Shown here: piece after piece, positions 19,739 through 60,800 of the stretch
Layout: each line of letters opens with the position of its first letter
Position numbering within the stretch: the stretch's first letter is position 1
DNA from: Wuchereria bancrofti
Taxonomy: Eukaryota; Nematoda; Chromadorea; Rhabditida; Onchocercidae
Length of the DNA: 64,000 nt
NCBI GenBank assembly: GCA_005281725.1
Contig: SSBO01000012.1
Coordinates: forward strand, 13,329,297 to 13,393,296
Direction: 5' to 3'
Program-made: the position numbers and the translations under genes
The notes under the pieces: generated by a model
Seen by the model: the letters and a program-made list of their open reading frames with translations, nothing else
What the model was told of the DNA's origin: nothing
The model's database searches: none

Positions 19739-19963
19739 TTATTGTTGTTGTTTTGTTGCTATCGCTATTGTTAGGATAAGCAAAATATAGTAATCCTATA
19801 GTGATTATTTAGTTATAAAATTAATTTACCTTATCACTTAGCAATAAGGTATGTTACAGAAGCAAATAAGACATAGTACTGTTAACAAAAAAAAAAAAAA
19901 AAAATCTAATCATTCAAATATTTCTTTAAATTCAATCAACACATGCAAAATGCAAATGATTAA

Positions 19964-22144: not shown

Positions 22145-22145
22145 N
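22145..22145. other. Assembly join (single N)
   Basis: Left of this N is haplotype 1 intron 9 of the AMPK gamma gene, cut at a point that continues uninterrupted at 56344. Right of it is the inside of a BEL/Pao element. The two sides are therefore not true neighbours. Confidence 0.85.
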
Positions 22146-22776
22146 TGGGATAGCGATTGTGATGACTATCCTACGGCAAAAACTCGACTATATCGTCTCA
22201 AAAGATTGAAAAAATGTCCAATATGTTTTAGAGATAATCACAAAGGAGAAGCATGCAAAGTTAAAAAACAATGCTTCTATTGCAAAGGTTCTCATAACAG
22301 TGCCTTATGTGAACAAAGAAATATAATCAGCTCAGAACATATGGCGCGTTGGGAGAATAAGACGCCAGGAAACTCTCTCCAATTCAATATGTACGACTCG
22401 AATGGAAAAACCAGGTGAAACATTACTGCTATGCAGAGGAATAAAAGTATTCAATCCGAAACAGCCTCAACGGAAATTGAAGGCCTTAGCACTATTTGAT
22501 ATAGGGTCTCAATTATCCTTCATTTCGAAAAAATTATCTCATCAATTGGAATTGTCCGAATCCGAAACCCAAATCATGAAGATATCCCCATTTGGTACAA
22601 ACAAACCGAAACGGTGTCCAACAACCGGTGCGCAACTAAGTATACAAACCCAAGAAAACGGGATTATACCATTGCGTGCTAATGTAATAGACTATTTAAC
22701 GAATGAAGTAGAAGTTGTCGAGATACCAACGGAGTCACAATTCCAAGACCTAACTAGCAAATGGGAAAAACCTTAG
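22146..22776 (+). pseudogene. BEL/Pao gag C-terminus and aspartic protease region, broken
   Basis: The gag end has two zinc-knuckle-like motifs, CPICFRDNHKGEAC and CFYCKGSHNSALC. The reading frame then shifts near 22402-22418 into a DUF1758-type protease segment containing LFDIGSQLSFISKKLS. The catalytic triplet reads D-I-G where D-S/T-G is usual, which would probably impair it. An in-frame TAG at 22774-22776 separates it from the following polymerase, at a point where the family continues with an ILIGADYFF motif. The gag-to-protease frame change could be a mutation or a programmed shift; this copy alone cannot decide. Confidence 0.85.
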
Positions 22777-24738: not shown

Positions 24739-26120
24739 AAGGGAATTGTATGACCAATTACGACTACCAGATAGCAGAACGGTTATTGATTCAACAGGCG
24801 CAATCACAAAATTTATCTGCAGAGGAAAAGGAAAGGTGGAGTCTATTTCGAAATAGATCTGATAACTTATGGAGATCGAATAGTCGTCTAGGAGAATCGG
24901 AATTAAACGACGAAAGCAAATATCCTATATACTTGCCGAATCACGATTGCATTACTGATCTAATTACCTTGCAACAACATGAAGACCTGTATCACGCAGG
25001 AATCTCCCACACTTTGTCCGAATTGAGATATAGATTTTGGATACCAAAGGGGAGAGTTGCAGTAAAGCAAATTATCTCCTGTTGTAGAACTTGTATACAT
25101 TGGAAGGCCAAACCATTCAAGTTACCACCAATGCCAAACCTACCGGAAAGCCGAGTGAAGCGTTCAAAATCATTCGAACATGTGGGTTTAGATTATCTAG
25201 GACCTCTTTCAGTCAAAACTAAAATGGGCGTTGTAAAAAGATGGATGGCACTTTTTACATGTTTTACAACTAGAGCAGTACACTTGGAAATGGCAGAAGA
25301 CTTGTCCGCGGAGAATTTTTTGCATGTTTTAAGAAGATTTGTTGTAAGACGAGGATACCCGAAGTTAGTCCTGAGCGACAACGCTAGTCAATTTCAACTT
25401 GTTTTCAAAACAATTATAGAGACAAACGCCAATTTCCTAGCAGAAAAGGGAATGGTATGGAAAAATACTATCCCAAGATCACCTTGGGGAGGTGGAGTAT
25501 ATGAAAGAATGATTGGACTCACAAAAGGAGCTCTAAGAAAAGCTATAGGGAGAAAACTTCTCAAGGAAGGCGAATTGATAACATTAACAGCGGAAGTAGA
25601 AGGGATTCTTAACACCCGACCACTAACATATGTAAGCTCCGAAGATTATAGAGTCGTACGTCCAATCGATTTTATTGCACCTACTTCAACATTGGACATA
25701 CCGATCAATTACGATAATGAAGAGGAAGAATATACTCCTAATCCACCAAAAACGAAGGATAAGCTACTCAAATACTGGGCCAATACCCTTAAAACACTAG
25801 ATGTTTTTTGGAAACTATGGAGAGAAGAATATCTTACAAGTCTCAGAGAACGAACACAAAAGGAATTAATCTGTCCTAGATTCGTAGAAAAAAGAATTCC
25901 GCGAGAAAATGAAATAGTTTTACTAAGCGAACCGGAAACGCCTCGCGGTATATGCAAATTAGCAAGGATAATCAAAATTAATAAAGGATGGGATGGGAGA
26001 ATAAGAAGCGCAACAATCCAAATGTCAAATGGGAAACAACTTGATCGTTCAATCAACAAGCTATGCCCCATGAGCGCCAAAGAACGCTCACTTCAAACCA
26101 AAAATGCTGTTGAAGATAAA
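24645..26120 (+). pseudogene. BEL/Pao integrase with DUF5641-like C-terminal domain
   Basis: This is the most intact module of the element. After [14 protein letters not shown] it shows the zinc-binding HHCC region (HEDLYHAG, then [11 protein letters not shown]) and the catalytic D,D,E residues in [16 protein letters not shown] and GGVYERMIG. The DUF5641-like region follows ([19 protein letters not shown] to [16 protein letters not shown]), which in Pao elements sits at the integrase C-terminus. The frame is offset from the upstream RNase H frame, so translation would require a frame change near 24700. It runs on into the envelope-like region without a stop. Confidence 0.88.
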
Positions 26121-27642
26121 TCCAATAGCTTCATGAAGACTTTACTACTGATGACTACTATATCATTGATGTCAGTACAGACAGTAGCGAAAACTAACTG
26201 CAAATGGACTTCCGGCATACCCTTTAATGTTCCCGAAAAATGGAACTGTGAAAAAATCTATGGGGAAAACGTTACTTGGCATAATATGGACGTACATACT
26301 CGCACTCATATACGAATACCAGCTATAAAATGCAGCAATATAACACGAACGGTGTGTACGAAAGCCTTCCTGAGACTAGCACTATCAGTAGTCTCAGATA
26401 AAACAACAACTTCTGTTGTAACTCCGCAATTTTGCCGAACTCTGTATTCTCAAACAAAAGTAACTGCGACCAAACTGATTCAATCTTTCCCTAACAAATG
26501 GATAACAAATAACGAAATACAGTATTCATATGGATGGTTGGGAGTTAAATGCCAATCGACAATAAATTTCGTAATGACAAAGGGAGAAATACTCTTCTAC
26601 GAAGGAAGAAGATTAGTTTCTAATCTTGATGATACAGACAAATGTATGGTGCAAGTACGTGACTAATACTAGTACCGTTTTATGGAACAGTACTGAAGCA
26701 ATCAATCAATGTCCATATAAAAGAATTGGAAGATTCAACACTATCAAATATGGAAATCACTTCATCATCAAAGAATTGCAATCTTCATTTATACTTGATA
26801 ACGAAACCCACTCAAGTACAATGAAAAATTGCAAATTTGACAATTCTTATATAATGAAAGGATATATCATCTTTGAAAGGAATACAAGAGAAGAAAGAAA
26901 CTTCACTACAAACTCAAATCAAGAGACAACAAACCAATTATTCATGATGGAAATGTCTCCAGGTGATACATCAGACCCCAATAACGTAAAACTCCAATAT
27001 GCCGTCGATTTATTAAGACAAGAGTTTATACAACAATTTGAAGATACCTACCAAAGAAGTTGTCAAAACAGAAATAATCTTCTTTACTTGATTGAAGCTT
27101 TATCGAGTCATTATCCCACCATTACAACAAGAATGATATTACAAAGGAGCGATGTAATAGCCAAAAATGAAAACGGAACATTGCTCATAGCACCTTGTAA
27201 AATGGATAGGCTTCCATTTCAAAACATCGAATTTAAAGGAGGACTAATAGATAAATTTGAAGCCGAAAGAATTAATGCGGGGCTAGAAATCCTAGCTCAC
27301 AAACACGAGATAGTTAACACATTACCTCATGAACAGAAGGATGAATCTCTATGGCAAGAAATCTCAGGACAAGAAGAAGAATTGGCGAAACAAATAGAGA
27401 GTGGATTCGAGAAAGTAACCAATTCGATACAAGAAAAACTTGAAGGCTTGATGATGCATTGGAAAGTAATCACTGCATGCATAATTATTGTAGCCATATC
27501 AATAGTAATAATTGCTCTTACACTGAAATTCAGATTTCTCCAATCTTTATTCTGCTCTTCTCGTAAGCGAGAGTCAAATTCAAGAGATATCATTCTACTC
27601 CCCACGATCCTATGTCAGTTAATAGAGAACTCCATTAGTTAA
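26121..27642 (+). pseudogene. Envelope-like glycoprotein ORF of the Pao element, frame-broken
   Basis: It follows the integrase domain in the same frame and opens with a hydrophobic signal-like segment (about 26130-26190). A Cys-rich ectodomain with several N-X-S/T sites follows. The frame changes near 26640-26665. The second part ends in a heptad-like helical stretch (about 27340-27450), a transmembrane helix (about 27465-27530) and a basic tail. This is the layout of a membrane fusion-type glycoprotein. I cannot assign it to a known envelope class (nematode Pao elements are known with envelopes of different viral origin). The homologous C-terminal part at 54263-54639 supports it being a regular element gene. 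This copy is disrupted and not translatable as one protein. Confidence 0.75.
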
Positions 27643-27742
27643 ACTCAATACCTTTTATTATACACCTGGAACCCCCTAATTAAAACTATCACATCAATTT
27701 CACACTCCTTCTCTTCTTTTGCCTCTTTTGCCCCGTTGGGAG

Positions 27743-28320
27743 TGTCGCGAATTTCAATTCGCAAAAATTCCAAAGGATATATGAAGTTGTTTCAATTATT
27801 AAACGATCGTATATCTAGTTTAATCTTTCGTCAAATTGTTAAAATAAGTGTAATTCTTCCTAGTTACTTCTGCCTGAGCAGTTGTAATGCAATTCATAAG
27901 AACTTTGATCTTTTAACATAATTGTAAAAGTCTTCCTAGTTACTTCTGCCTGAGCAGTTATAAGGCAATTTCTGAGAACTTTGATCTTTATGTATCTCTA
28001 TTAAAATAACTACAGCTAAACCACGCCTACTTTTTTTGATATATAAACTATACTCGGTGTTAAAAATGTTCAGTTGTTGATATTACTACGCTTGATTAAC
28101 CTCATCCCTCCTGTTATCTTTACCATTGGCAAATAAAGATTTAACTCATCTCTTTATCCACAACGTAACACACACAAACACACCTTATTCCCTACCAACT
28201 TGGTGCAACTAACCCTCCAAATCATCACGAACCTTCAAGCCTCTACACACAATATACAGACGTCCTCTACTTATTTCAACTATTGACTAACTACAAATAC
28301 TGCAACAAAACTCCACGACA
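27743..28320 (+). repeat. 3' LTR of the BEL/Pao element
   Basis: 578 bp beginning TGTCGCGAATT and ending CTCCACGACA, with TGTCG/CGACA inverted termini. It contains a 76-bp imperfect tandem repeat (27855-27930 and 27931-27993), a TATA-like TATATAAAC at about 28040 and AATAAA at about 28132, the expected U3-R order. GGGAG and a pyrimidine-rich tract precede it. The 5' LTR is not in the window, so LTR identity and target duplication cannot be checked. Confidence 0.8.
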
Positions 28321-31300
28321 TTTAGATTAAATTCAAAAAAAGATTAAATTTTTTGAAATTATATTCAAATTCTGATTAAAATTATCCCATATTTTAAAAT
28401 CAATCAGAAATTATCATGATCAGAAATTATCAGTGAATATTTCGGTGCAAAAAAAAGAATTATAATGAGGATCTCTTAGATTATTTATAACGTTTAAAAA
28501 TTTGTCGTTTTTTTTCTCTCTCTCTCGATGACAACAATATTTAATGAAAAAATGTGTATTGAAGGAAATTTTTCTTACTTTTTTTTGCAGAGACTAATTA
28601 ATTTGATAAACTATTTGTCTTTTTTATTGATATCATTGTAAAATAAAATGCATTGCTGCCAAGTTTAGATTCGAAATCTAATCTCATATAAGTGATAAAT
28701 GTAAAATTTAAAGGAAATTTGTTAAATCATTTCAAAACTCATTTGTTGATAATCGAATATCACTTCATTGACAAATCAAATTTTATTAAATCATTGTTGA
28801 ACGATTTGCAAATTGTTAAGAATTATCATATCTTATAAGTATACGTATACTAATAACTTATTATTAGTTATAGTTAGAAGTTTATTGAAGGTCTATATAA
28901 TACTTTTTCTCTTTTTTCAATGAGTGATATGCAGAAAATATATTTGAATGAGCATTAAACAATAAAGAAAACCTTACATCGAATGACTGACTAATTTTCA
29001 GTAATATTAGGAAAAGAAAAATGAGGCAGACAATATCAAATCATTTCAATTAATTAGAATATTAATTAGAATACTTTAGAGCAAATAAATCCTACAATTA
29101 AAAAAAAATCCAATTTCTAGAGAAAAAGAAAGGAAATTTGATAACTGAAATTTGGAAAATTAATTTTCAATTATGAAAATTATTAAAGTTGAACAAAACT
29201 TCACATAAAATAAAGTTTCAAATTTCTCCTGAGAATTAATAATTGTAATTCAACTCTATAATATTCGGAAATTTCTCACAAGTTGAATTATGCTGTATAT
29301 TCTTCAAATGTAACTTCAAAAAATGATGCATACGTTGACAACTGATACTAAAGTTTCAATCAAGATATTAAAGTATGTAAGTTAAACACTTCCACTTTAA
29401 CTTTTGATCTTTTTAAGAACAAATAATCACGATTTAGCATCTATATTGTCTTTTCATCTTTTCCTTTTTCTGATCAATGATTTTTGAATATTTATTGCGT
29501 TTTTTTCTGAATAAAGTTAGCATTATTCAAAACAATAAAAACTACGGACTAATAATTCTGAATGAAGAAGAATACGGCTAAATGGTAATGATTAATATGA
29601 TACATTTTCAATACTTTTCAAACAAACCATTAAAAAAACTTATTTTAAGACTTATACATTACTTTTTACAAGTTATACATTTAATCACTAGTGTGTTAAA
29701 ATAAAAAAGGAAAAGAACAAAACTGCGCATGTATAAACAAAAATATAACAAAAGAATTTTACAGATGAAATAATACATCTATGTTAAGTAATAACGCTAC
29801 TTATCATAATGAATGAAAATATTTATCATTTATCATTATCAGTACTGCTTATCATTCGCTTAGAAAAGTCAAACTCATATGAGTATCATTTTAGCAATAA
29901 AGTAAATCGCGTATGTAACAATATTTAAAGATTAAATTTATCGCAGTAAATAAGATTTGTTCATTTAAACATTCGCAAAGTATCAAAGATATTTTGGTAT
30001 GTTTAGGATGCAAAAATGTATGACAATTACCAGTACAGGTATTCCTAAGATTAAATTATAGTCAGGATGACTGATTACTTATATGAGCAATTATTCAAGG
30101 TAAGCTACCGTACGTTGAAAATCTTTGAGCTATAAGAAAAATCAAAAATATACAGAAATAAACAAATCCTTTTTTTCTTTGTTTTTTTTTTAATAACATA
30201 AAATAATATAGCAATGTAAAGGTATGAAGCAATTATAGATGAAAGAAAGGAAAAAGAAATGGAGAGAAGAAAAAAAAGGAAATATGACTAGTAATATCAG
30301 GAAATTAAATTTATTTCGCAAAAGTGCGAGAAGAAAAAGAGAAAAGAAAAAAGAAAAAGTAAATGTTATAAAATCATAATTCATTTCATTCTTATATTAC
30401 TATAACAGAATAATGAAAAGACAAAGTGATTCAGTATGAAGTGCTTTCATTATATTAACAAAAATATTCACCTAGAAAACACAATCTTATCACTAACTCA
30501 AGTAGCACAATTTAATCAGTGCTAGTAATAGAAATACGTCCAGAATATTTCAAATATACCAAAACATTTATTACTATTATTATTATTGTTGTTTTGTTGC
30601 TATCGGCATTGTTAAAATAAAAAAAAATATAGTTGTAAAAACAAATTTAGTATTCCTTTCTCTGCTTCCTTACGAAACAAAGTAGTTCCCCTTTCTCGAT
30701 AGTTCAGATCGTTGGCTTGTTTGCCTTCGATACTGGTAGATTCTCGAATCTGTACTGGTTCCGTTCTGTGTACGTGTACTGTGGCAGTCTTCGTGAAATA
30801 CTTTATTATTCAAACCTCAAACTTTGGTAATTAAACCACAGTTTAACATTAAAAATTATATAACATTACAATAACGAACTGATACATTACACACAAATAT
30901 AACTTAATTATAAAACGTTTAAAGATATAAGCAAGCTATACACCTCCCAACCGACTCACACCAAAACAAAAAACTATAATAAATGACTTTGTAAGGAAGA
31001 AAATTGGGAGGGACTTTATGGATGCTAAGGTTATAAAGTAGATTAAAATCATTTAAAACAATAATCTTTGTTCACTACGTTATAGCTTCGCATTGTGGCG
31101 ACAATAGTAATCCTATAGTGATTATTTAGTTATAACATTAATTTACCTTATCACTTAGCATTATTAGTTGATGGATGATGATTTTTCTCATATTATCAAT
31201 GTTAACATAACTAATACAATAAACTATGTTATAGAAGCAAATAAGGCAAAGTATTGTTAACAAAAAAAAAAAATTCTAATCATTCAAATACTTTTTTAAA

Positions 31301-31333
31301 TTCAATCAATACATGCAAAATGCAAATGATTAA
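28321..31333. other. 3' flank of the AMPK gamma gene, haplotype 2
   Basis: Alignable by eye to 17460-19960 with frequent substitutions and small indels, and no gene. The one large difference is the 470-bp solo LTR at 30634-31103, absent from haplotype 1. Confidence 0.75.
30634..31103 (-). mobile_element. Solo LTR (470 bp) containing an SL1-like leader, haplotype 2 only
   Basis: Flanked by perfect 5-bp target duplications ATAGT (30629-30633 and 31104-31108). Haplotype 1 at about 19786-19796 has the single uninterrupted copy. Ends are TGT...ACA; read on the minus strand it begins TGTCGCCACAATGCG, like Pao LTRs (TGTCGCG). On that strand a 22-nt segment at 30837-30816 matches the nematode SL1 leader at 21 of 22 positions (one C to A), followed closely by AATAAA (about 30808-30803). 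A solo LTR from a BEL/Pao-type element is the best reading. Confidence 0.85.
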
Positions 31334-31432
31334 TTAATTTATCGAAACTGTGCGAAACTTTTGGTGAAGTTCGTTCGCATCATTTTGTCACTCCGACTCA
31401 TCGTTTATTTTGTCTCCGAAAGATCATTCGTC
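31334..31432 (-). pseudogene. AMPK gamma exon 13 counterpart, haplotype 2, prematurely stopped
   Basis: Homologous to 19964-20075. The acceptor is kept (TTTTAG at 31434-31433). A 1-nt deletion in an A run gives TAA at 31405-31407 after eight codons, and a further net deletion of about 12 nt follows. Either the tail is dispensable, or this copy is decaying, or exon 13 is not a true coding exon. Confidence 0.6.
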
Positions 31433-31992
31433 CTAAAAGATAACTCTCTCATTAACCGTTAATTATAACTTCGACAGTAAAAGAATTCTAATTTTTTGTC
31501 ATACATTCAGTATGTTATTGATGTTCCTTGCAGGATCGCATGCTTCAATATTATTTGTTCTTATTATCATTATTATTTCATTTTTTATTTTTTGGAATAG
31601 CGGTCTACTTCAAGGAACTTCGATCTCTTGATTTCGAAATAAAGTGTTCTTTTCATAATTTTTTTTTTTCATAAACATCCAATTTTTCATAATTTTTTTA
31701 AAGAAACTAACGATTCGAGTCCTTCTGGAAGTATGCCCAATCTGAAAAATGTATTCCTCATTTTAATTCAAATTTCGCAACTGTTTCAATTAGATAAACG
31801 TTTTGGAATTATGTCATTCCCTTAAAATCCTTTAACAAGAACATATGCATGCCGTTTCATCTTTAATTCTAATATACATAGATCAAATAATTAGCATAAA
31901 TGTCAAGTTAGCAGAATATTTACTTTTCCATAAATATCATTCACTAAAGCCATAAATTTTAATCTTTCAAAAAATTAAATATAAAAACATAT

Positions 31993-33567
31993 AAGTTGTG
32001 CCGTGAATGCTGACTAAAACGCGAATGATAATGAAGATTTTCGGCTGACGTATCAGCTACATTAACAACCAAAAAATTCATTATATCAGATAAAGAAATC
32101 AAACCCTGTAAAGAAGATAAACTGTTAAATCAAATAATTTGAGAAAGTGAGAACTTATAAGAGGATATTACATTTCTTCACATAAATACATGATCATTTA
32201 AGAGGAACGACAGTGTTACTGCCTGTGACATGCAAGATCAATTAAAATCTGAAATCATTTGTATTGTTACATTTAAAGAATTACTACTCTTCAAATCTAT
32301 TCGAATTACTAAATCAATAATAGCATGAATCTTATATATTCCATAATTTTATTAACTTCAGACATAATATAAAATGTTTAAAATATAAAATCTAGAAATT
32401 ACCTCAATTGCGCCATTATCTTTTAAAACACAAAGTCGATGAACATTCCTTTCAACAAGTACTGTAATAGCTGTCCACAATGAATCATTTACTGATATTG
32501 AAACGACACGATCTTTTTCAAGCTATAAAAAAGTAAAAAATAAATAATTTACAAAAATGTCAAAATTGGCAAAACATTTTGAAAAAGCTGTTTTTGGATG
32601 AATCTTTTCAGCATTGAACGATTTTAAATTTCAATTTTTAAAGAAATCAATCGAATTATTTTTATTATTAATAGAGATGATTTTTATATTCTTATATAAT
32701 ATCATATATATATATATATAAAGGAATAAACTGAACCCTGAAAGTATTCCGGAAAGCTAGTGCTTCTTCAACCGTTACATCAAGCTCATCAATTTTATCC
32801 TCTAACGCTACACCAATCGCATCGAATCGTGAATACATATCCACAACCCGGAATGTATTATGCTCCACAACTGGGACACCGCTGACACCTTTATTTAGTA
32901 ATATATCAAGACATAAAATTAAAGATGTATCCGGATAGACCTGAAATGTAAGGTAAATTATAGGTTATGAACCTAATATCTCTCAAGCATTTATTTATCC
33001 AATATAATTACTTCACTTCGATATAAAGTTCCTACACCCACTAGTAAAACTGTGGTAATTTCTAATTCTGCTGATTTCTTGGAATGATACTCACGATCAA
33101 TTGAATAATATGGATCATCAACATATGGCTCATTCTGGTTCACTCTACAACAATATGGTTCATTCTTCAGCCTATCTATGATAGCGTCCGCTACGACAGT
33201 TATTTAGTACAAAGTTTCATAAATTTAGCTTAGAAACTATTTTCTAAATCAGTAGATTTTTTCCATCATCAAATCTTTTTATTTTGATGAAGAATTTTTG
33301 AGAAAAAAAACCATTAAAAACAAGACAAAAAAAAAAAACTTCATGTTAATTTGTCAAATAAAAACAAACAACTAACTTTTTTTTAAGTTAAATCTATTCC
33401 ATTTCTTGTTCAAATGGATGTTTTCTTTTTTTTTTCCGAAAAATATATTTACTTCATAGAGTTTAGAAACTATTTCAAATACTTACTACACGTATGCCAT
33501 CATATGTGCCAACACCAAGCTCTTTACAGGTTTTATTATGATAACCAGGAATGTAAAGTGATTGACC
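31993..33567 (-). CDS. aakg: AMPK gamma exons 9-12 (haplotype 2, switching to haplotype 1)
   Basis: Exon 12 (31993-32105) and exon 11 (32403-32522) are haplotype 2 versions. Exon 11 differs from haplotype 1 only synonymously, whereas exon 12 has Met to Thr and Ser-Ser to Asn-Leu at its end, and its donor GT is AT. From the TA repeat at about 32715 onward the sequence is identical to haplotype 1 through exon 10 (32737-32940) and exon 9 (33487-33567, encoding IPGYHNKTCKELGVGTYDG). A haplotype switch inside the contig explains this. Function is as for the main entry at 54845. Confidence 0.8.
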
Positions 33568-33895: not shown

Positions 33896-36800
33896 TCGTA
33901 TCGAATCGTGAATACATATCCACAACCCGGAATGTATTATGCTCCACAACTGGGACACCGCTGACACCTTTAATTAGCAATAAAAATTAAAAACAAGATA
34001 TAAAATTAAAGATGTATCCGGATAGACCTGAAATGTGAGATAAATTATAGGTTATACTTATAAACCTAATATCTCTCAAGCATTTATTTATCCAATATAA
34101 TTACTTCACTTCGATATAAGGTTCCTACACCCATTAATAAAACTGGTGGTAATCTCTAATTCTACTGATTCCTTAGAATCATATGCATGATCAATTGAAT
34201 AATATGGCTCAACAACATATGGCTCTGGCTCACTCTACAACAATATGGCTTCAACCCATACGGCTCATTCTTCAGCTTATCTATGATACGCTATGACAGC
34301 GTCCGCTACAATTACTTAATACAGAATTTTATAAATTTAGCTTAGAAACTACTTCCCAAATCAGTAAATTTTTCCATCATAAAATCTCTTTATTTTGACA
34401 AAGAATTTTTAAGGAAAAACCACAAAAAAAACCTTTCTTTATCATGAATACTTCATGTTAATTTGTCAAATAAAGACAAAATCTTAAACAACTAACTTTT
34501 TTCTAAATTAAATGCATTCCATTTCTTGTTCAAATGGATGTTTTGAAATACTTACCACACGTATGCCATCATATGTGCCAACACCAAGCTCTTTACAGGT
34601 TTTATTATGATAACCAGGAATGTAAAGTGATTGACCCTAGAAAAAAAGGAAAATATGACCAGCAAAGAATAAATAACAATAATTGAAAACAAAATGAACA
34701 CTGATTTTAGCTGACTTTAACCAAGTAATACAATACCAATACTTTTTACTAGGATCGATATTACAGAAAGTATTTGTTTGTTATGTTCAACACATTTCTT
34801 AGTAGCTCTTCTAGCCGGATTAAAGATTATTTAAAGAATTAAATAATCTTTAATCCGACTAGAAAGTTCACTCAGATCTACCAATTAGCAGTAAAAATTG
34901 TCTCAGATTAAGCCTCTTTCTACACTAATTAAATCAAGTTGGCATCGAATCTTGATAAGACATCTACATAAAAATTTGAAGGAAAATAATGACGATCGAT
35001 AAATAATAATATAATACAATAAATAAATGACTTACGAAAAGCCATAAAAATTTTAGAATTCGTTTATGGGTCAAAATGAACAATGGACTTCCATCACTTG
35101 GATCTAACACTGGTAAACGATGTATATGTTGTTTACTGAGTAAAAAAGCGGCTTTCAATAAACTGAAATTAACAGACAATGAAGCAATCATTTAAGTATA
35201 ACGTATCCTAGAAATAGTAAAATACAAAAAATTGTAGAGAATTACAAAACTGTTTTGAAAATGGATTCGATGAGAAATCTTACCCATAAATGGTTCAAGA
35301 AAATAAATATCTCACATTTGAATCCTGAAGATGGGGACAAATTGAGAAACTATTTGTTCGAAATTTTATTTCGTAAAATTTTAAATTGCCCGAAAACCAT
35401 TTCTCAAATTTAAAAGTTTCTCACAAAAACAAACCCACTTTATTTAGTAATAATAAGAGGGTTTGTTTTGATAAATACGTATACCTTTCTTCTGCAGTTA
35501 TTGATACAAGATCCATTAATTTTCCTTCACGGCACACCAAATCTGTAAAAATTAAAAATGAAAAAAAAAAGAAAAAACGAGAATTACACAATTTCCGGCA
35601 AATGCACAAAACTAATGAATAAAATTGCCAAACATTAATATTACTTGTTTACATTTCGGAAATGGTTTTTTAGCAATGCAAATTATGCTTTCATCCGGAA
35701 AGATTAATTTAGAAAGAATTAAAAATGAAATAAAAACCTCGATATTCGGATATGGTAAGGGTTCCGATGTCTTCATTTGGTGTATTTATTATGGCACCCG
35801 CCACTTCTATTATTTTCTTTTCATTCTGACATTTATCATTCATTGTATTGATTTCTTGCTTCTCCACATTTGACATTTCCGATTCTTTTAGTTTATCATT
35901 CAATTCTAAATCCATATTTTTATTTATATCTTCCTTAATTATTGCAGAATTTTTTTCTCCCTCGCACACAGCTCCTTTTTTCTCATCTTTCCCTTCTTTT
36001 TTCATCCTGAAAAGAAAAAACAATAAAGAATAACAAACAAAAAAAATCCGGAAGAGTATATTATGATAGAATTTCAGATTTTTGTAATTGACCCCATTCG
36101 GCTATATGCTCAGAAATGAAATCTCAAAATATAGCAAACCTAACCTAATAGTTTTAGTTTTAAATAATAACCACATTAACCATGCATTCTTTTTTTTGGA
36201 TTAAATTTGATTTAATACATTTTTCGGATTTTCAATTTAAGCTTGGTGTGAGATTTAAAATCTCAAATATTAAAAAAGTTACTTGTGTAATAACAAAAGA
36301 ACTTGGATAAAATCTGTCACAGATAATATACCAACAACTGCATTATTTTTAGCTGAATCCGATAGCAATACATGTCGTGCATCTATAAGAAATTATTCAT
36401 AAATATTATTTTAACAATTATTATTTTAACAATTAGAAAGTAAATTCATTTTCAATCTAAATTAAAGAGAAGTGGGTTGAAATTTTTTTTAGAAATAAGG
36501 TATATATCAATTATTTTTGGCATCCAATATTTCAGAAAAAAAAATTTTTAAACTTTGACGAGCAAATATGCTTTTTACGGACGAAACTTCATAAATATAA
36601 TAAAAATAATAATTTAGATAGGTACAATTCTCATGAAACTAATTACTCAGATATAGTGGGATTCGAGATATAAGATTAAGGAATTAGATCATAATTTAGT
36701 GTAAATAATTTATGTACACTTTAAATTTAGTGTAAATAAAAAACTTATGTACCGGTGTAAATAATTTATAAAAATAACTTTGTATAAAATTTAATAATAT

Positions 36801-37157: not shown

Positions 37158-37277
37158 AATAAAATTGCCAAACATTAATATTACTTGTTTACATTTCGGA
37201 AATGGTTTTTTAGCAATGCAAATTATGCTTTCATCCGGAAAGATTAATTTAGAAAGAATTAAAAATGAAATAAAAAC

Positions 37278-37922
37278 CTCGATATTCGGATATGGTAAGG
37301 GTTCCGATGTCTTCATTTGGTGTATTTATTATGGCACCCGCCACTTCTATTATTTTCTTTTCATTCTGACATTTATCATTCATTGTATTGATTTCTTGCT
37401 TCTCCACATTTGACATTTCCGATTCTTTTAGTTTATCATTCAATTCTAAATCCATATTTTTATTTATATCTTCCTTAATTATTGCAGAATTTTTTTCTCC
37501 CTCGCACACAGCTCCTTTTTTCTCATCTTTCCCTTCTTTTTTCATCCTGAAAAGAAAAAACAATAAAGAATAACAAACAAAAAAAATCCGGAAGAGTATA
37601 TTATGATAGAATTTCAGATTTTTGTAATTGACCCCATTCGGCTATATGCTCAGAAATGAAATCTCAAAATATAGCAAACCTAACCTAATAGTTTTAGTTT
37701 TAAATAATAACCACATTAACCATGCATTCTTTTTTTTGGATTAAATTTGATTTAATACATTTTTCGGATTTTCAATTTAAGCTTGGTGTGAGATTTAAAA
37801 TCTCAAATATTAAAAAAGTTACTTGTGTAATAACAAAAGAACTTGGATAAAATCTGTCACAGATAATATACCAACAACTGCATTATTTTTAGCTGAATCC
37901 GATAGCAATACATGTCGTGCAT
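37278..37922 (-). CDS. AMPK gamma exons 5-6, redundant assembly copy
   Basis: Exon 6 (37278-37546) and exon 5 (37823-37922) are identical to those at 35738-36006 and 36283-36382. They are best treated as the same exons assembled twice. Confidence 0.85.
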
Positions 37923-46648: not shown

Positions 46649-47004
46649 TGTCGGCAAATAGGCCGAAAGTATCAATACAGTAATTAAGAACCAAGGGAGG
46701 GCGCTAACACAGGAGTCAAACTGACAAGCAACCAGATAATAAAAATGCAATTTAACGATGTGGATATTTGACCTCAACAAAGAACCATTTTAAGCGGTAT
46801 AGCAGGGGCAATTTCTCTTTATGGATGTTACAACGGATCGACGAATTGGGGGACAGTGGTCTTAGGACAGCTACAGGACGATGCGTGCACAGGATTTTAA
46901 CTGATAAACGGATAACCCTTTGTTACAAACGATGTAGCTGGAAAGCGAGGAGAAGCAGCCAAGAATCTCTTTGTTCATAAATTAACCTCGCTTTACACAC
47001 ATTA
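46649..47004 (+). mobile_element. Partial copy of the 826-bp solo LTR, cut by an assembly join
   Basis: It begins TGTCGGCAAATAGG after the flank GTACA and matches 48461-48816 with a few single-base differences. It stops at the N at 47005, so the leader-bearing part is missing. Confidence 0.85.
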
Positions 47005-47697: not shown

Positions 47698-48460
47698 TTT
47701 CTGTCTTTTTCTTCCTTTCTCTCTCCCTCTCTGCTCTTTCCAAAGCTAACATTTTTTTTTAACTAACACTAACTAACCTTAACTAACATTTTTTTGATTA
47801 TTTAATAATAGATATCAACGGTAACCTGTAAAAAAATCCCTAAATTAGCCTTCGACTGCTATTCTTTATGAGTAAAAAGTGTCCTCAAAAAAAAAAGATT
47901 GTAATGATAAGAAAGACAAGTAAGATGTAATCACTAACAAGTTTAAACAAAAAAACATCTTGTCAGTTATTAAAAATTTTATTTTAAAAAGATGACTCAT
48001 TAATTAGTAACTAGTAACAATAATCAATGTCATATGAAAATATAAACAAATCATTCAAATGAAATAAATTAATCTCACATAATAAATATAACATACAATT
48101 AATACATATATAAATATAAGTTCGAAAAAAGAAGGAAAAGCGTCAATTTTTTTATTACTAGCTAAAACACATCGCAAACACTCATACTTTATATTTCATT
48201 CTAAAAGTCAATATTATAAAGTGAAATCTTATAAACGAATAGAAAAAGAAAAGGAAGAAAAGAAAATCAATTCTAGCTTAATAGAATAGAAAATTTAATT
48301 TATTTATAATTATCATGGAATAAAGAATAAGTTGAATTGATTTTTAATTATAAATGAAGGAATGATCAAAATTAATTCTCTCATAACGATTAGAGAAAAA
48401 TTATAACTTTTTATTACGAATATATAAAATGGAAAAAAGAAATCGATTATTAATAGTACA

Positions 48461-49286
48461 TGTCGGCAAATAGGCCGAAAGTATCAATACAGTAACTAAG
48501 AACCAAGGGAGGGCGCTAACACAGGAGTCAAACTGACAAGCAACCAGATAATAAAAATGCAATTTAACGATGTGGATATTTGACCTCAACAAAGAGCCAT
48601 TTTAAGCGGTATAGCAGGGGCAATTTCTCTTTATGGATGTTACAACGGATCGACGAATTGGGGGACAGTGGTCTTAGGACAGCTACAGGACGACGCGTGC
48701 ACAGGATTTTAACTGATAAACGGATAACCCTTTGTTACAAACGATGTAGCTGGAAAGCGAGGAGAAGCAGCCAAGAATCTCTTTGTTCATAAATTAACCT
48801 CGCTTTACACACATTATATTGTATAAAATACATGACAATTAAATGCATGTAATAGGCTATTGTAACAAGATATCTATGCTTAAACAAATCTCCTTTCTTC
48901 CCAATTTCACATTTTTTGATCTTCAGTCTCAATTAACTCCAACACCAGCTCTTAATTGCAGTTAATCATTTTTTACAGTTGTACATTTATAGTGTGGTTG
49001 CGGTTTCAGCTCTCTGGTAATGTTTAGCGTTTTATAACTGTGTAGCATCCGTGCGATATGTATAATGCGCTATTATGATGTTGATTTGTTTTATGCTAAA
49101 TAAAGGTTTAATTACCCAAGTTTGAGGTGCGGAAAACAATCAGTTCGTCCAGTTCTACTGAGAGTACAACGAGAACGACGAGAATAGACGTAAGAATAAA
49201 TTAAAGTAGGAAACAATTAAATAAACAGATATTCGTCCCTTAAAGAAAGAGGAGGGAATATCATAACAACCTTATTTTTTCCTACA
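48461..49286 (+). mobile_element. Solo LTR (826 bp) carrying an exact SL1 leader
   Basis: TGTCGGCAAAT...CCTACA with perfect 5-bp target duplications GTACA at 48456-48460 and 49287-49291. A 22-nt segment at 49105-49126 equals the canonical nematode SL1 spliced leader, directly preceded by AATAAA (49099-49104) and followed by GTGCGG. About 160 bp follow to the end. No coding capacity or internal region remains. Boundaries rest on the duplication and TGT/ACA ends; assignment to BEL/Pao rests on the 5-bp duplication and the TGTCG start. Confidence 0.8.
49105..49126 (+). other. Exact 22-nt SL1 spliced-leader sequence inside an LTR
   Basis: The segment begins GGTTTAATTACCC and ends GTTTGAG, identical to the SL1 leader that nematodes trans-splice onto mRNAs. 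It is followed by GT, as in SL RNA genes. The following sequence does not resemble the conserved SL RNA 3' part, and I see no Sm site in the usual place. It therefore appears to be a leader embedded in an LTR rather than an SL RNA gene. Confidence 0.85.
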
Positions 49287-52200
49287 GTACATCTTCGCAC
49301 CATATCATTATTAAATCTCAAGAAGTTACTTTTCGAATTGAACATGAACCTGTTGTTAAGTTATATCTTACATGCATACATCAAATACACGTAAACGTAC
49401 ATGTACGTACGTTTATAGAATTTATATAAGACAAATAAATAAACAAACAAACAAACAAAACGTCTAACATTTATAGAAAAAAAAGTGCAGAATTAATGAA
49501 ATGTTCGCATCCATCCTCACTCCATTGCTAATTTTAATAGATAAGGAAAAGAGAAAGAGGGAATGATAGAGAGAGAGAAAAGGAATGAGGGTGAAAGTGG
49601 AGGAAGTAGAAAGAGAGAGAGAGGGAGGAAAGAAAGAAAGAAGGATGAATAGAAGATAAAAGGAAACATGTTTTGTTATCTTCAGTATTATCTTCTCAGT
49701 TTTTCTCTAACCTTTCTTATTCTATCTTATATTCTAACACTCTTTTCATTTATCATCAATCTTAACCATTTGATACAATATATTGTTTATTGTATTTTTT
49801 ATTCTCTGTCAACATTATATTTCCATGCACCCTTTTCAATAAGTTCTTTTTTTCTTTTCTTCATATTATCTCCTAAAATTATCAAATTATTTTGTACAGT
49901 TTTATTTTTCTTTTTCAGACATTTCCATATATGTTATATATGCTTTCTTCCGTTAAAATTTTCCTTTTTACTTTTCTTCCTTATATTTTAAAATTATTTA
50001 AATTAAGTCTTATTTGTTATGATTACTTTTCATTAATCCACGCTTTTTCCTTTTCTTTTTCTCTCTGTCTTTCTCTCTCTCTCCCTACTCATTCTTTCTT
50101 AAAATTTCTTTTTATTTTACCAAATAATCACAGCGATAATTTCATTAGAATAAAATGACAAATTGTCATCATTCTTTTCCTAACATTATATTGATTTTTT
50201 TGCTTACAATTATATTATTTCTTATGATAAAAATAACCTTTAAAAATATTTTTAAATTATTATTAAATTAGAAAAAAAGGAAAACCAAAAAACTAAAAAA
50301 TAAAAACCAATTATAAAAATCAATGAAATATAAATAAGATTGCAAAGAAAACAATTATTTAAAATAAAGAACAAAAAGTAAAAGGATGAAACGTAACAAA
50401 AAAAAAACTAAATGAATTAATGTGTTAATTAGGATGAAACGAATTGAATACACACATCGATGCTTTCATGTAAAATTCCTTTTTTTCTCCTCTTTCTCTC
50501 TCTATTTTCACATCGTTTTAATGTATTATTCATTTATCGCTAAAATATATTTACTTTTCTTCCAATTCTTTTTTCCTACCTTTCTTTCTTTCTCTTCTTT
50601 CCTTTCATTTCTTTTTAATTTTATTTGAAAATTTTATCAAATATTTCATAGCATTAATAAAGACAGAACAGAAATAAATCATGCGAAATAATTGATTTTA
50701 TTTGAAAAAGAAAGAAAGGACAAATAAATAATAATTGAATATTTATGAAAGATATTTTTCGAATTTTTAATAAAAAAGATAGTAATATAAAAGATAATTG
50801 TGTTAAATTTAAAAAAATATGAAAAGGAGAGAGATAGAGAGAAAAAAAGAGAAAAAGAAAAAAAAGAAGCGAATCATTTTATAATAAACAATCATAAATT
50901 TTTTTTTTGTTTTTGTTTTAAACACCATTTATACGATTATAAATAATTGTTGAAGGAAAATAAATGAGATGGAAAGAAGAGAAAATTATTTACCATATAA
51001 TTTCACTGTTTTAACTATTTACTGTTTCAAATATTTTTCTCTTATTATATTTGTTAATGTTAATTAACTGTATATGTTAAAATATATATGTTAGATATTT
51101 AAGTTCTATCAACTTTATTAGAAGTATATCTTTAAAAAAAATATCTTTAAAAAAAATTATATAACTATATTGCATATGCTATGTGCAAATTAAATTTTAA
51201 ATTGTAAAGTAAAATTTGAGTAAAGTGAATGAGTATGAATATGAAGAATGAATGTATAAAGAATAAAGAATGAAGAAATGAGTATGAATAAAGAAATAGT
51301 TTGAAATTTAATACATATGGATAAAAATTTCATTATTGAATTCTTCATTTTAACAACTTATTTTTTTATTATTTATTTTTTTAAGAAAAAAGAAAGAGAC
51401 ATAAACAGTTGTTGAGTTTAGCTTTTTAAAATGAAGCAAAAATATTTGCGACAAAAAAAACTAAGAAAGTTTTACTTCAATTATTAACAAAAAGATATAA
51501 ATAATGTTTTCGTAGATTTTTAAAATAGTTTAACTTCATTTATCTTAATTAAATAGAGCAAAGGTTTTAAATAATGAAAGACGGAATTAAAATAATGAGA
51601 TTAATTTTCAAAAGAAACACGATAGTTGTTCAAACTGGAATGAAACAATGATTTCAAAATCGTAGCTTATTTTCTGGTCACGAAAAAAAAAGAAAAAAGG
51701 AAAGAAATAATATTTATATTGATATTAATATAGTTTGCTTAGTTAAACGTTGTAATAGAATTTTTTCTGCCTTAATTTTTAATTTTTAATAGAGAATTTT
51801 TCTTTTGACTTCTGACTCAAATTTTTAAATATAAGTGAATTCTGCTACAAAAATGAAGTATTTGTTAGCAAATTAAATCTTTTTATCCAGCATGACAAAT
51901 ATGAACAACGCTAATGAATTATTTCAAACAAACTAGAATTTAAAAAAAGAGAAAAAGAAAAAAAACGAACTTTCTAATCAAGAAGTGAAGATAGAAAAAA
52001 AGTATTGTTTTTGAGATAAATTTATTTGTATTAACTTGGTGANGAATTGAATACACACATCGATGCTTTCATGTAAAATTCCTTTTTTTCTCCTCTTTCT
52101 CTCTCTATTTTCACATCGTTTTAATGTATTATTCATTTATCGCTAAAATATATTTACTTTTCTTCCAATTCTTTTTTCCTACCTTTCTTTCTTTCTCTTC

Positions 52201-54844: not shown

Positions 54845-57800
54845 GAGCTGTGCCGTGAATGCTGACTAAAACGCGAATGATAATGGAGATTTTCGGCTGA
54901 CATATCAGCTACATTAACAACCAAAAAATTCATTATATCAGATAAAGAAATCAAACCCTGTAAAGAAGATAAACTTTTAAATTAAATAATTTGAGAAAGT
55001 GAGAACTTATAAAAGGATATTATATTTCTTCACATAATAAAATAAATATATGATTACTTGAGAGGAACGACAATGTCATTGCCTATGACATGCAAGATCA
55101 ATTAAAATCTGAAATCTGAAAAAATTTGTATTGTTACATTTGAAGAATTACTACTCTTCAAATCTATTCGAATCACCAAATTAATAATAGCATGAACTTT
55201 ATATATTCTATAATTTTATTAGCTTCAGACGTGATATAAAATGCTCAAAACATAAAATCTAGAAATTACCTCAATTGCGCCATTATCTTTTAAAACACAA
55301 AGTCGATGAACATTCCTTTCAACAAGTACTGTAATCGCTGTCCACAATGAATCGTTTACTGATATTGAAACGACACGATCTTTTTCAAGCTATAAAAAAG
55401 TAAAAAATAAGTAAATAATTTACAAAAATGTCAGAATTGGCAAACATTTTGAAAAAGCTGTTTTTGGATGATCCTTTTCAACATTGAACGACTTTAAATT
55501 TCATTCAATTTTTAAAGAAATCAACCGAATTATTGTTATTATTAATAGAGATGTTTTTTGTATTCCTATATAATATTATATATATATATATATAAAGGAA
55601 TAAACTGAACCCTGAAAGTATTCCGGAAAGCTAGTGCTTCTTCAACCGTTACATCAAGCTCATCAATTTTATCCTCTAACGCTACACCAATCGCATCGAA
55701 TCGTGAATACATATCCACAACCCGGAATGTATTATGCTCCACAACTGGGACACCGCTGACACCTTTATTTAGTAATATATCAAGACATAAAATTAAAGAT
55801 GTATCCGGATAGACCTGAAATGTAAGGTAAATTATAGGTTATGAACCTAATATCTCTCAAGCATTTATTTATCCAATATAATTACTTCACTTCGATATAA
55901 AGTTCCTACACCCACTAGTAAAACTGTGGTAATTTCTAATTCTGCTGATTTCTTGGAATGATACTCACGATCAATTGAATAATATGGATCATCAACATAT
56001 GGCTCATTCTGGTTCACTCTACAACAATATGGTTCATTCTTCAGCCTATCTATGATAGCGTCCGCTACGACAGTTATTTAGTACAAAGTTTCATAAATTT
56101 AGCTTAGAAACTATTTTCTAAATCAGTAGATTTTTTCCATCATCAAATCTTTTTATTTTGATGAAGAATTTTTGAGAAAAAAAACCATTAAAAACAAGAC
56201 AAAAAAAAAAACTTCATGTTAATTTGTCAAATAAAAACAAACAACTAACTTTTTTTTAAGTTAAATCTATTCCATTTCTTGTTCAAATGGATGTTTTCTT
56301 TTTTTTTTCCGAAAAATATATTTACTTCATAGAGTTTAGAAACTATTTCAAATACTTACTACACGTATGCCATCATATGTGCCAACACCAAGCTCTTTAC
56401 AGGTTTTATTATGATAACCAGGAATGTAAAGTGATTGACCCTAGAAAAAATAAAGAAAATATGACCAGTAAAGGATAAATAACAATAATTGGAAACAAAA
56501 TGAACACTGACTATAACCAAATAATACAATACTAACACTTTTTGCTAGGACCGATATTATGGAAGGTATTTGTCTCTTATGCTCAACACATTTCTTAGTA
56601 GCTCTTCTAGCCGAATTAAAGATTATTTAATTCTCCAAACAAAGTTCACTTAGATTTACCAACTTAGCAGTAAAAATTGCCTCAAATTTAGTCTCTTTCT
56701 ACATTAAATAACATCAAGTTGGCATCCAATCTTGATAAGACATCTACATAAAAATTTGAAGGAAAATAAAGACGGTCGATAAATAATAATACAATACAAT
56801 AAACAAATAACTTACGAAAAGCCATAGAAATTTTAGAATTCGTTTATGGGTCAAAATGAACAATGGACTTCCATCACTTGGATCTAACACTGGCAAACGA
56901 TGTATATGTTGTTTACTGAGTAAAAAAGCCGCTTTCAATAAACTGAAATTAACAGACAATGAAGCAATGACTTAAGTATAACGTATCCTAGAAATAATAA
57001 AATATAAAGAATTGTAGGGAATTATAGAACTGTTTTGAAAATTGATTCGATAAGGAATCTTACCCATAAATAATTCTAGAAAATAAATATCTCACATTTG
57101 AATCCTGAAGATGGGATAAATTGAGAAACTATTTGTTCGAAATTTTATGAGAGATATTTTTCGTAAAATTTTAAATTGCCCCGAAAACCAATTTTCAAAT
57201 TTAAAAGCTTCTCACAAAAACAAACCCACTTTATTTGGTAATAATAAGAGGGTTTGTTTTGATAAATACGTATACCTTTCTTCTGCAGTTATTGATACAA
57301 GATCCATTAATTTCCCTTCACGGCATACCAAATCTATATAAAAAAATAAAAAAGAAAAACGAAAAATTTCCGGCAAATACACAAAACCAATGAATTAATA
57401 TTACTTGTTTACATTTTAGAAATGGTTTTTTCTCAGCAATGCAAATTATGCTTTCATCCGGAAAGATCAATTTAGAAAGAATTAAAAATGAAATAAAAAC
57501 CTCGATATTCGGATATGGTAAGGGTTCCGATGTCTTGATTTGGTGTATTTATTATAGCATCCGCTACTTCTTCTATTATTTTCTTTTCATTCTGACATTT
57601 ATCATTCAATGTATTGATTTCTTGCTTCTCCACATTTGATATTTCTGATTCTTTTAGCTTATCATTCATTTCTAAATTCGTATTTTTATCTATATCTTCC
57701 TTAATTATTGCAGAATTTTTCTCTCCCTCGCACACAGCTCCTTTTTGCTCATCTTTCCTTTCTTTTTTCATCCTGAAAAGAAAAAATAATAAAGAATAAC

Positions 57801-60800
57801 AAACAAAAAAAAAGTACCCGGAAAAGTATATCATGATAGAATTTCATATTTTTGTAATTGACCCTATTCAGCTATATGCTCAGAGATGAAATCTCAAAAT
57901 ATAGCAAACTTAACCTAATAGTTTTAGCTTTAAATAATAACCACACTAACCACGCACTTTTTTTTGGATTAAATATGATTTATCCTGAAATAGTGAGATA
58001 GAGCTAAAGAGTCATCGTTACTGTCGCTAGTTAAGTTTGCCGCAATATTTTGAAGATTAGTGTGAGATTTAAAATCTCAAATACTGAAAAAGTTTACTTG
58101 TGTAGCAACAAAAGGACTCGGATAAAATCTGTCACAGATAATATACCAACAATTGCATTATTTTTAGCTGAATCCGATAGCAATACATGTCGTGTATCTG
58201 TGAATCAATTATTCATAAATATTATTTTAACAATTATTTACTCAGAGTAGAAGGTAAATTCATTTTCAATCTAAATTAAAGAGAAGTGAGGTGAAATTTT
58301 TTTAGAAATTATTTTTGGCATCCAACATTTCAGGAAAAGAAAATTTAAACTTTGACGAACAAACGAAACTTCATAAATAAAAAAATTAAACAATAATTTA
58401 GGTAGGTTTCAATTCGCATGAAACTAATTATTCAGATAAGGAGTCAGATCATAATTTAGATGTAATGGGAGCCGGTGTAAATAATTTATAAAAGTAACAT
58501 GTATAAAATTTAATCATATAACAATGTTCCGTTATAGTAATGATTAAATTTAATAAATCTAAACAAACAGATAAACTATAAAAATAAAACAGTCCATTTC
58601 CAAAATTCTCACAAATCATTATCCAATTTAAAACTTACTCTGATATATAAGACCATTAAACGCTTTTTTGAGTTGCAACTTAGTGTCGAAAACAACCATT
58701 TTAGAACTTGTTGGCATTGCTTCATAGCAAGCATTAAATTGCATCAAATGAACATAATTTAATTTCGAATCTGAACTATTCTGCATATTTGAACTGTGTT
58801 GCGAATTGCCGACCGTTGATGAGGCGTCAGTTTCCCGATAAGTTGAACTAAATCTGAAGAAAAAAAACAATTTAAAATATGATTTAAAAGGCCTTACATC
58901 CGAAAATTACTAAAATTGTCTTTTTTGGCAGTTGTCAAAAATTAAAATTCAAATTTTCGATTACTTTGTGTACATAAGTTCAAAAATTTTCTTAATCTCA
59001 GCAATAAATAATGCTATAGTATAAGTGAAGCAGATATTGAAAAACTGACTTCCTATTATGAATACAAAAAAACAAAACAAAAAAAAAGAAACAAATAAAT
59101 GGAAATAATAATAAAACGTTTCTTTCTATTTCTATTTGCTACCTTCTAGAAATCATAAATAAACAACAGAATGATTATTTTTCTATTACGTATTTATATT
59201 TTTTCCTTTCTCTTTATCCAAATTACCATATTCCTATTTAAATCACTAAAATTATCATTCTGTTATCAATGCTATAACAATTATAAACATAAAAGATTTG
59301 ATCCTAGTGAAGTTAAACTATTTGTAGTATAAAAATGATTTATACGATGAATAAATATGTAATTATTGTTATATCGCTGAATATTCCTGGTAAATATATA
59401 ATACATACTCTAATTTATAATCTAACTTCCCAATTTATAATAGTAATAATATAAAGCATAGAAAAAAATCAAAAACAAAGAGAGTTGTTTTCAAAATGAA
59501 AATGTTTAGACAGTAGGAAGAGAAAATTCATAGACAAGCTCTATAGCAATAGATCGATACGCATTGTTTTGGAAACAGCAAATCAGTGAGCGATCATAAA
59601 TTGAAACAGCTGAAGAGAAAAAAAAAACACTCTAAAATTTTATCTAATACAAACAAACAAAGTAACTAACTTGAAGAATTCATTAGTAACCTGAAACCTT
59701 ATTATTTGTTTTAATTTTATTAAATAATTACATAGGATATTTAGTTTTGAGCTAATTCTTGAACATTTGTCTTCTTTTAGAAATACAATGCATAATATTT
59801 CACTTATATCTATTGAAATACTTCAACTAGATAGTAAAATAAATAATAATTTAAATAAATTAAAATTAACAAAAGTTTCAAGCATAATAACAGCCATAAA
59901 GCTAGGATCTGAGCAAATTTGATTCAAATAATACTAATTGAATGCAAAAATTGAGAAGTGAAAATGTAGCAAAAAAAAATGAAATTTACTCAAGACTTAG
60001 TACAATGTATTTATATGGAAAACTTCTTTTTATATGGAATTCCAGCAAGTCGAAATATAATTAAGAGTATATTCCAGACAACTTACAAATTTATCAAACA
60101 CTTCCAGAAATTTAGAAAATCATATGACTGATGACTTAAAAAATTTCTGGCTCCTACTTTATGCTTGTTAAATGACAAATATTCATACACAATTACTATA
60201 AGAAAATAATAACTGAAATTGCAAATATTATTCTATTCACTCTCACATTGTTATTCACAAATAGCTGTGTGATAACAATCTGTGATAACAATCAAAACAG
60301 TAACAAATACACATATTTGTAATGGATAAAACTAACTCAATATTTAAGATTCAACAATGATTACATCGGATAAATTACGTTAAAAATTACAAATAAAAGA
60401 GATTATTGTTAACAACTGTTCAAATTATTTCCATTAATTGTTGTAGTAAGCAAAGAGTATACAGTGGAAAAAAATGTCCACAAAATATTTGAAGTATGAT
60501 ATCCAGTAAATACAAAGAGTAAACGATCACACTGTATCAATAACTAAAAGTGAGGTAAACATCAGATAAGATACATAATTCGAATCTGATGTTAACGCAA
60601 AACAATTAAAATAAAATATTCTGGAAAAGACATTCCAGTTTTTTTTATTCAACAAATATGCTTGCTAAAGCTTTCGTTTCACATATATTTATTATAATAA
60701 TTAATAATAATCAACAACTAATAATAATAATAGTAAGTAAACAATAATAATGATAATAATAAATAATAATAGCTTCGTTGTAAAATCATATTGATTTAAT

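Follow-up and report, generated by a model that had tools for sequence, protein, structure and literature searches.

The spliced leader SL1 is an integral part of BEL/Pao long terminal repeats in the genome of Wuchereria bancrofti

Introduction

The nematode spliced leader SL1 occurs, with all of its 22 nucleotides, inside a long terminal repeat (LTR) of Wuchereria bancrofti. Does the leader belong to the repeat, and by what route did it come to lie there? The repeat is located in a 64-kb stretch of DNA (the window), which we analysed together with the 86.5-Mb assembly. An initial annotation of the window had suggested that the leader may have been captured into the LTR during reverse transcription, or that the LTR may encode a leader of its own with which its transcripts could pass as SL1 mRNAs, and had considered an LTR family with the leader a new strategy of retroelements if it proved to be general.

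Results

We confirmed all the features on which that suggestion rested: an 826-bp element that starts with TGT and ends with ACA, is flanked by GTACA duplications, and carries SL1 directly after AATAAA and directly before GT (Table 1). The 22-mer (GGTTTAATTACCCAAGTTTGAG) is an exact SL1 within a solo LTR and starts at LTR position 645. Dinucleotide shuffles of the window (n=100) contained a mean of 0.00 SL1 matches at up to three mismatches, and the Rfam model of SL1 RNA (RF00198) gave no match at gathering score in the 64 kb.

Table 1. Coordinates of features in the window
Feature	Coordinates	Strand	Remarks
Segmental duplication, first copy	17535-21167		direct; 84-96% in pieces
Empty target site ATAGT	19787..19791	.	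for the 470-bp LTR; within segmental duplicate
Decayed BEL/Pao element	22327-27642	+	several frames
Segmental duplication, second copy	28416-32500		carries the extra 470-bp solo LTR
Second solo LTR	30634..31103	-	470 bp; U3 type 1 + U5 type 1; ATAGT duplications
SL1 with one mismatch	30816..30837	-	C to A at position 13
Three similar short reading frames	35709-36101, 37249-37641, 57472-57843	-	two identical
Truncated copy of the 826-bp LTR	46651..47004	+	first part of the LTR; 99%; stops short of SL1
Left target-site duplication GTACA	48456..48460	.	
Solo LTR	48461..49286	+	826 bp; U3 type 0 + U5 type 0; TGTCGG...CCTACA (TGTCGGCA...TTCCTACA)
U3-side part of the 826-bp LTR	48461..49104	+	presumed boundary, from poly(A) signal and SL1
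AATAAA	49099..49104	+	abuts SL1 upstream
Exact SL1 22-mer	49105..49126	+	presumed start of R
Segment 3' of SL1	49127..49286	+	presumed remainder of R, and U5
Right target-site duplication GTACA	49287..49291	.	

The window holds a second solo LTR with SL1, on the opposite strand, and a decayed BEL/Pao element with DUF1758, RT, Peptidase_A17, H2C2 and DUF5641 domains and an integrase core below the cut-off; RT and integrase domains were checked in this element alone. A further frame of 341 aa without a Pfam match lies at its 3' end, a spot that env-like frames can occupy. Comparison of 20901-22600 with 27201-28700 did not find LTRs of its own. The element is bracketed by a direct segmental duplication. 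Elsewhere in the window, the three similar short reading frames may stem from a local duplication of recent date or from haplotypes that the assembly did not resolve. The window also includes 22 Ns, stretches of 300 nt recur exactly at 45264/47076 and 50441/52044, and the GC content is 28%.

Across the assembly we found 371 SL1 matches at up to two mismatches, and none with the reversed pattern as control. Four finer patterns returned exact lists of 24, 94, 30 and 28 sites, and of the 222 SL1 coordinates that we used, 195 are sites from exact lists and the other 27 were placed by estimate, from matches to LTRs. The fetched DNA contained 156 distinct SL1 contexts at up to four mismatches, identical contexts being counted as one; 147 were kept after removal of four SL-RNA-like contexts and of those with more than two mismatches or short flanks. 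SL1 was exact in 138 of the 147, a fraction that is biased upward because most sites had been located via SL1 itself. Nearly all of the fetched contexts, which represent part of the 371 matches, were LTR-like. When eight LTR-type loci and three true SL RNA loci were scanned together with the Rfam model of SL1 RNA, the latter three matched and none of the eight did. The three (L063, L064 and L065) are true SL1 RNA genes by RF00198, and two of them share their locus with 5S rRNA. Viral contigs scanned for SL1 gave no matches.

A less biased view came from LTR copies chosen by similarity instead of by SL1, with four queries: the 826-bp family of the window, LTR type 1, U3 type 0 and U5 type 3. 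With the 826-bp LTR we obtained 46 match rows, the best 40 of 254 candidates having been scored; all 30 excised copies carried SL1 at up to two mismatches (27 exact, two with one mismatch and one with two). LTR type 1, to which the second LTR of the window belongs, had SL1 at the same threshold in 40 of 40 LTR-length rows (32 exact, eight with one or two mismatches), these 40 having been scored out of 112 candidates after exclusion of 16 shorter rows with fragments of the LTR start. For U3 type 0 the figure was 37/40, with 27 exact sites (20 from the site lists and seven from fetched DNA), nine with one mismatch and one with two; the other three were cut or degenerate, and the set represents 43 rows less one that ended at 361 and two fragments. 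U5 type 3 yielded 35/40 (27 exact, five with one and three with two mismatches), and the other five had indels or a degenerate SL1. Among the rows of the four queries there was no intact relative without SL1, and a few copies retained no more than remains of it. We also found no precursor in which a 3' splice site occupies the joint: the 40 rows each of U3 type 0 and U5 type 3 all have SL1 or remains of it. Together with the genomic matches, these sets support SL1 as an integral LTR part, general in the W. bancrofti genome examined. As a separate feature of LTR type 1, the first ~83 nt are tandemly repeated in variable number at the LTR start of several copies, with three extra ~83-nt units at C12:13733511-13733762.

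The Pao-type protease domain Peptidase_A17 had 116 matches in the assembly, which merged to 95 loci. With the 222 coordinates, SL1 lay within 7 kb on the same strand at 25 of these loci, on the opposite strand at nine and on both sides at six; with the 195 exact-list sites alone, the counts were 23, eight and six. At six loci the Peptidase_A17 matches sit between same-strand SL1 sites. The flanking 22-mers are all exact there, which is a selection effect, since the site list used held exact sites. The cleanest element, on C1 (2.887-2.894 Mb), has 398-bp LTRs that are 99.5% identical, GTTAC on both sides and SL1 in both LTRs; its LTR terminus reads U3-SL1-GTTTCACGACA and ends 11 nt past SL1. 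The LTRs of the C9 pair are 100% identical over 435 aligned bases, with no matching 5-bp duplication seen. U3 is rearranged in the C12 pair, one copy of the C8 pair contains N and the other an additional TTTGAG, and additional copies are present at the C48 locus. The C11 pair is similar over 877 bases, extending past the LTR, and is probably a tandem duplication. In the 826-bp family, the 5' LTR L017 is followed ~2.8 kb downstream by a Peptidase_A17 match in the same orientation; no complete LTR pair was established.

SL1 was thus present in both LTRs at elements having both, among them the C1 element with its matching duplications, and full-length members without the 22-mer, which the initial annotation had named as evidence against its proposal, were not seen at the six two-sided loci. 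These loci are a weak test because they had been picked for SL1; the similarity sets are a better one. Ends of the TGT...ACA form with 5-bp duplications were found for GTACA and ATAGT in the window and for GTTAC, CAGTT, GCGTG, ATGGC and GATAG elsewhere, and a putative primer binding site (TGGTGCC... or another sequence starting with TGG) follows the LTR directly in L004, L005, L017, L070, L073 and L080. The SL1-bearing repeats are best read as a set of BEL/Pao LTR families.

Clustering of the last 40 nt upstream of SL1 gave 12 clusters (U3 types) and that of the first 22 nt downstream 18 (U5 types); some singleton clusters were merged for the counts of U3/U5 combinations. In most sites of 14 of the 19 combinations, AATAAA or ATTAAA is found at -6/-7 or at +1 to +15: at -6 or -7 with U3 type 0, and at +1 to +15 with U5 types 1, 4, 5 and 6. 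A signal of this type is at -6 in 25 of the 27 fetched sites that combine U3 type 0 with U5 type 0. In the other five combinations, neither AATAAA nor ATTAAA occurs in the 40 nt that precede SL1 or the 45 nt that follow it; one of these combinations (3,4) is the inner joint of double LTRs described below. Since the poly(A) signal adjoins SL1, the leader would be the start of R or most of R. The initial annotation, too, had suggested the R region. By eye, U3 type 0 differs from type 2 by ~13 additional nt in front of SL1, so that R may begin elsewhere than at G1 of the leader in type 0.

GT follows SL1 at 119 of the 147 sites, most of which had been selected via SL1. Random trans-splice acceptors would be expected to yield fewer, and the excess is not accounted for by simple capture. 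The GT may stem from common ancestry of the U5 starts, from an origin in SL RNA, or from a function as splice donor.

The two sides of SL1 occur in varied combinations. U3 type 0 is followed by U5 types 0 (27 sites), 2 (20), 3 (22), 4 (1), 7 (5), 8 (3) and one other, and two further copies, L228 and L233, join it to U5 type 4. Conversely, U5 type 2 is preceded by U3 types 0, 2 and 8, and U5 type 4 by U3 types 0 and 5 and by the second SL1 of double LTRs. Representatives of U3 type 0 with U5 types 0, 3 and 4 agree in 95-98 of the last 100 nt of U3, and the first 40 nt of these U5 types share best local matches of 4/4, 7/8 and 7/7 alone. U5 types 2, 7 and 8 are borne by more diverged subtypes of U3 type 0 (0 versus 2, 71/86; 2 versus 8, 94/98). 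The entire 365-nt U3 of the C1 element, which has U5 type 2, is ~91% identical to U3s leading into U5 types 0, 3 and 4 (C3:7910385, C9:2101308 and C12:10886054).

We compiled an ungapped identity profile of 2218 pairs that share their U3 but not their U5. Identity was 0.97-1.00 at the three bases upstream of SL1; downstream it was 0.78 and 0.98 at the first two bases and then mostly 0.06-0.43 (0.72 at +9), approximately the level of unrelated pairs. Upstream beyond about -16 it also dropped, to 0.29-0.89, which we ascribe to indels. U5 type 5 was judged from the printed sequences because the ungapped comparison was one base out of register. Between U3 types, the 5' side of SL1 differs from the first base on, at sites mostly located via SL1. 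SL1 looks like a fixed joint where LTRs exchange their ends.

Some LTRs contain the leader twice. Nine contexts have the structure U3-SL1-32 nt-SL1-U5 type 4, with a spacing of exactly 32 nt in all, and four have U3-SL1-~100 nt-SL1-U5 type 5. Both SL1 copies are visible in L050, L057 and L060 of the latter; in the fourth, L134, the stretch includes the end of the first SL1 alone. The downstream parts of the double LTRs are also found after a single SL1 (L136, L228 and L233; L045 and L047). Single and double forms could reflect two landing sites of one strong-stop DNA, SL1 in one case and the end of the old R in the other. As a further irregularity, SL1 is extended by TTTGAG at C8:560637, C12:906950 and C107:2276. 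The extended sequence AAGTTTGAGTTTGAG has eight genomic matches, three of them at known SL1 LTR sites; a new leader spliced at the AG inside the old SL1, in the manner of the dinoflagellate relics, or slippage may have produced it.

Variants of the leader are shared between copies. The change of C to A at position 13 is common to the second LTR of the window, L206 (C9) and L208 (C3), and the last two also share G22C. These are separate insertions, as their duplications differ (ATAGT, GCGTG and ATGGC, respectively). L221 and L222 have the same insertion inside SL1 and unlike 3' flanks. G20A occurs in both L028 and L150, which are 0.7 Mb apart on opposite strands and were compared in SL1, not in their flanks. 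Other common variants are found in neighbouring copies (L216/L217, L225/L226, L230/L231 and L024/L096), which may be local duplicates. Since independent insertions share variants, SL1 is transmitted as LTR sequence and not renewed in each cycle, and since an SL1 with an insertion was propagated, the exact leader is not strictly required.

SL1 is not uniquely conserved in the 826-bp family: 30 of 805 windows of its length are more conserved, and two 11-nt blocks at -33 to -12 vary less. Two states in at least three copies each were found in none of the 22 SL1 columns versus 118 of the 826 LTR columns, and 169 of the 805 windows are likewise without any two-state column.

Discussion

How did the leader enter the LTRs? 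We consider it most probable, at about 0.6, that SL1 was captured by trans-splicing and reverse transcription and then became a heritable segment of R used in first-strand transfer, a reading that draws on the sequences of the copies. RNA of an element would have been trans-spliced to SL1, and reverse transcriptase would have copied the leader into strong-stop DNA. Transfer of the strong-stop DNA to the 3' end of element RNA would then have written SL1 into the LTR. From that point on, the LTR would itself encode the leader, whose inheritance is seen in the shared variants and whose use in replication we infer. The leader would lie on both ends of the RNA, and SL1 would make up the whole R repeat or its initial portion. 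Since many families share SL1, strong-stop DNA of one element could anneal to the 3' end of another. Such cross-annealing would fuse an old U3 precisely at SL1 with a U5 that is new to it, and end-to-end joining would leave LTRs with two copies of SL1. Capture by reverse transcription, one of the options of the initial annotation, stands as the most likely reading; its novelty does not, because a study of 2020 had already put forward that PAO elements acquire SL1 when their RNA is trans-spliced (PMC7181701, to judge from the part of the article available).

A broader proposal, to which we give somewhat less than an even chance, is that SL1 serves as the common R of many BEL/Pao families and as a universal homology for first-strand transfer, so that U5 and the leader region would be exchangeable among any RNAs ending in SL1. 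If this is true, LTR evolution is modular at the spliced leader, and the swapping of 5' ends between LTR families is explained. More generally, a retroelement group would have made the trans-spliced leader of its host a working, heritable part of its replication. There is also a warning here: genomic SL1 matches or SL1-primed cDNA in such worms may include leaders encoded by LTRs besides those of trans-spliced transcripts.

SL1 might instead have been retained as a promoter or initiator, with RNA polymerase II starting at its first G. In SL RNA genes of Ascaris, the leader is said to direct the polymerase to start at this base, as Hannon et al. reportedly found in 1990. Such a role would suit the retention of SL1 across otherwise dissimilar U3 types and the TATAAT that, by eye, lies 22-27 nt upstream of it in U3 types 1 and 2, and if transcription began at G1, SL1 would form the 5' end of R with no need for trans-splicing. 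However, the 5' flanks of the true SL RNA genes L063-L065 are by eye unlike the U3 ends, which indicates that the SL RNA promoter at large was not acquired. The promoter role also leaves the double SL1 and the exact U3/U5 joints unexplained, and the copies with a broken SL1 (L221 and L222) were still propagated. We regard it as unlikely.

A still less probable source of the leader is a template switch of reverse transcriptase onto SL RNA itself instead of onto trans-spliced element RNA. GT is the next dinucleotide after the leader in SL RNA, as it is at the 119 of 147 SL1 sites, and GTAATT, with which U5 begins at three of the six sites that join type 4 to U3 type 5, likewise follows the leader in the SL RNA genes L064 and L065. 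Elsewhere, however, agreement past the leader mostly extends over 2 nt, GT is missing in U5 types 5, 6, 7 and 9, and none of the eight LTR-type loci matched SL1 RNA in Rfam.

Renewal of SL1 through trans-splicing in every replication cycle would agree with the many exact contexts (138/147, biased upward by selection mostly via SL1) and with the lack of two-state columns in SL1 (0/22 versus 118/826), yet 169 of 805 windows lack them as well. Inheritance of C13A, G22C, G20A and the insertion variants weakens strict renewal in each cycle. SL1 itself ends in GAG, and GAG is a poor 3' splice site in nematodes. We therefore hold renewal to be very improbable. Finally, we reject a chance match, for which shuffles and reversed control both gave zero, and an inserted fragment or pseudogene of an SL RNA gene, the other objection that the initial annotation had anticipated, since nothing but the identity of the letters speaks for either, the 22-mer is at the same position in dispersed copies and in both LTRs, no SL RNA body follows the leader, and Rfam, which recognized the three SL RNA loci, matched none of the LTR-type loci and nothing in the window.

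Several known systems come close to the one described here. Foster et al. (2020; PMC7181701) observed SL1 next to PAO elements of Brugia malayi, which they attributed to leader addition and integration. They counted 316 SL1 signatures, of which 196 were SL RNA genes; among the remaining 120, 60 lay within 1 kb of PAO. These figures are not comparable with our 371 matches, which were taken at up to two mismatches and inspected in part. Leader, superfamily, the presence of SL1 to either side of certain elements in the same strand and the inference drawn are all alike in the two species; the available part of the B. malayi account, however, neither locates SL1 within the LTR or at U3/R nor mentions mosaics, double SL1 or inherited variants. 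In flatworms, partial leaders at LTR and LINE elements have led to a similar inference (PMC12582326); unlike those in W. bancrofti they are incomplete, and no position within the element is described in the portion of the report at hand.

Relict leaders in dinoflagellates are likewise explained by trans-splicing, reverse transcription and reintegration, and some are in tandem (PMC12014239, PMC3229502). According to the accessible parts of these papers, however, they belong to host retrogenes instead of LTRs and are cut at an internal AG, whereas the Wuchereria LTR copies inspected mostly have full 22-mers. Cer1 of Caenorhabditis elegans, another LTR retrotransposon from a nematode, produces an RNA that bears SL1 (PMC3315495). 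In contrast to the present families it is of the Gypsy/Ty3 type, SL1 is trans-spliced to a spliced RNA, the 8-kb RNA is not trans-spliced there, and the sections available report no SL1 in the LTR. The ta-TRIM solo LTRs of Echinococcus interact with the trans-splicing system too (PMC4558846), but there the transcript of the LTR is joined by cis-splicing to a trans-splice acceptor and, in the part of the study available, the LTR has no leader.

Among the open-access titles and abstracts listed, none dealt with SL1 inside LTRs, with mosaics at SL1 or with double SL1, part of which the supplementary data of Foster et al. may hold. The link between SL1 and PAO elements was already known; as far as the available parts of these publications go, our analysis adds the location of SL1 at the presumed U3/R boundary, the modular joint, the double SL1 and the inherited variants of the leader.
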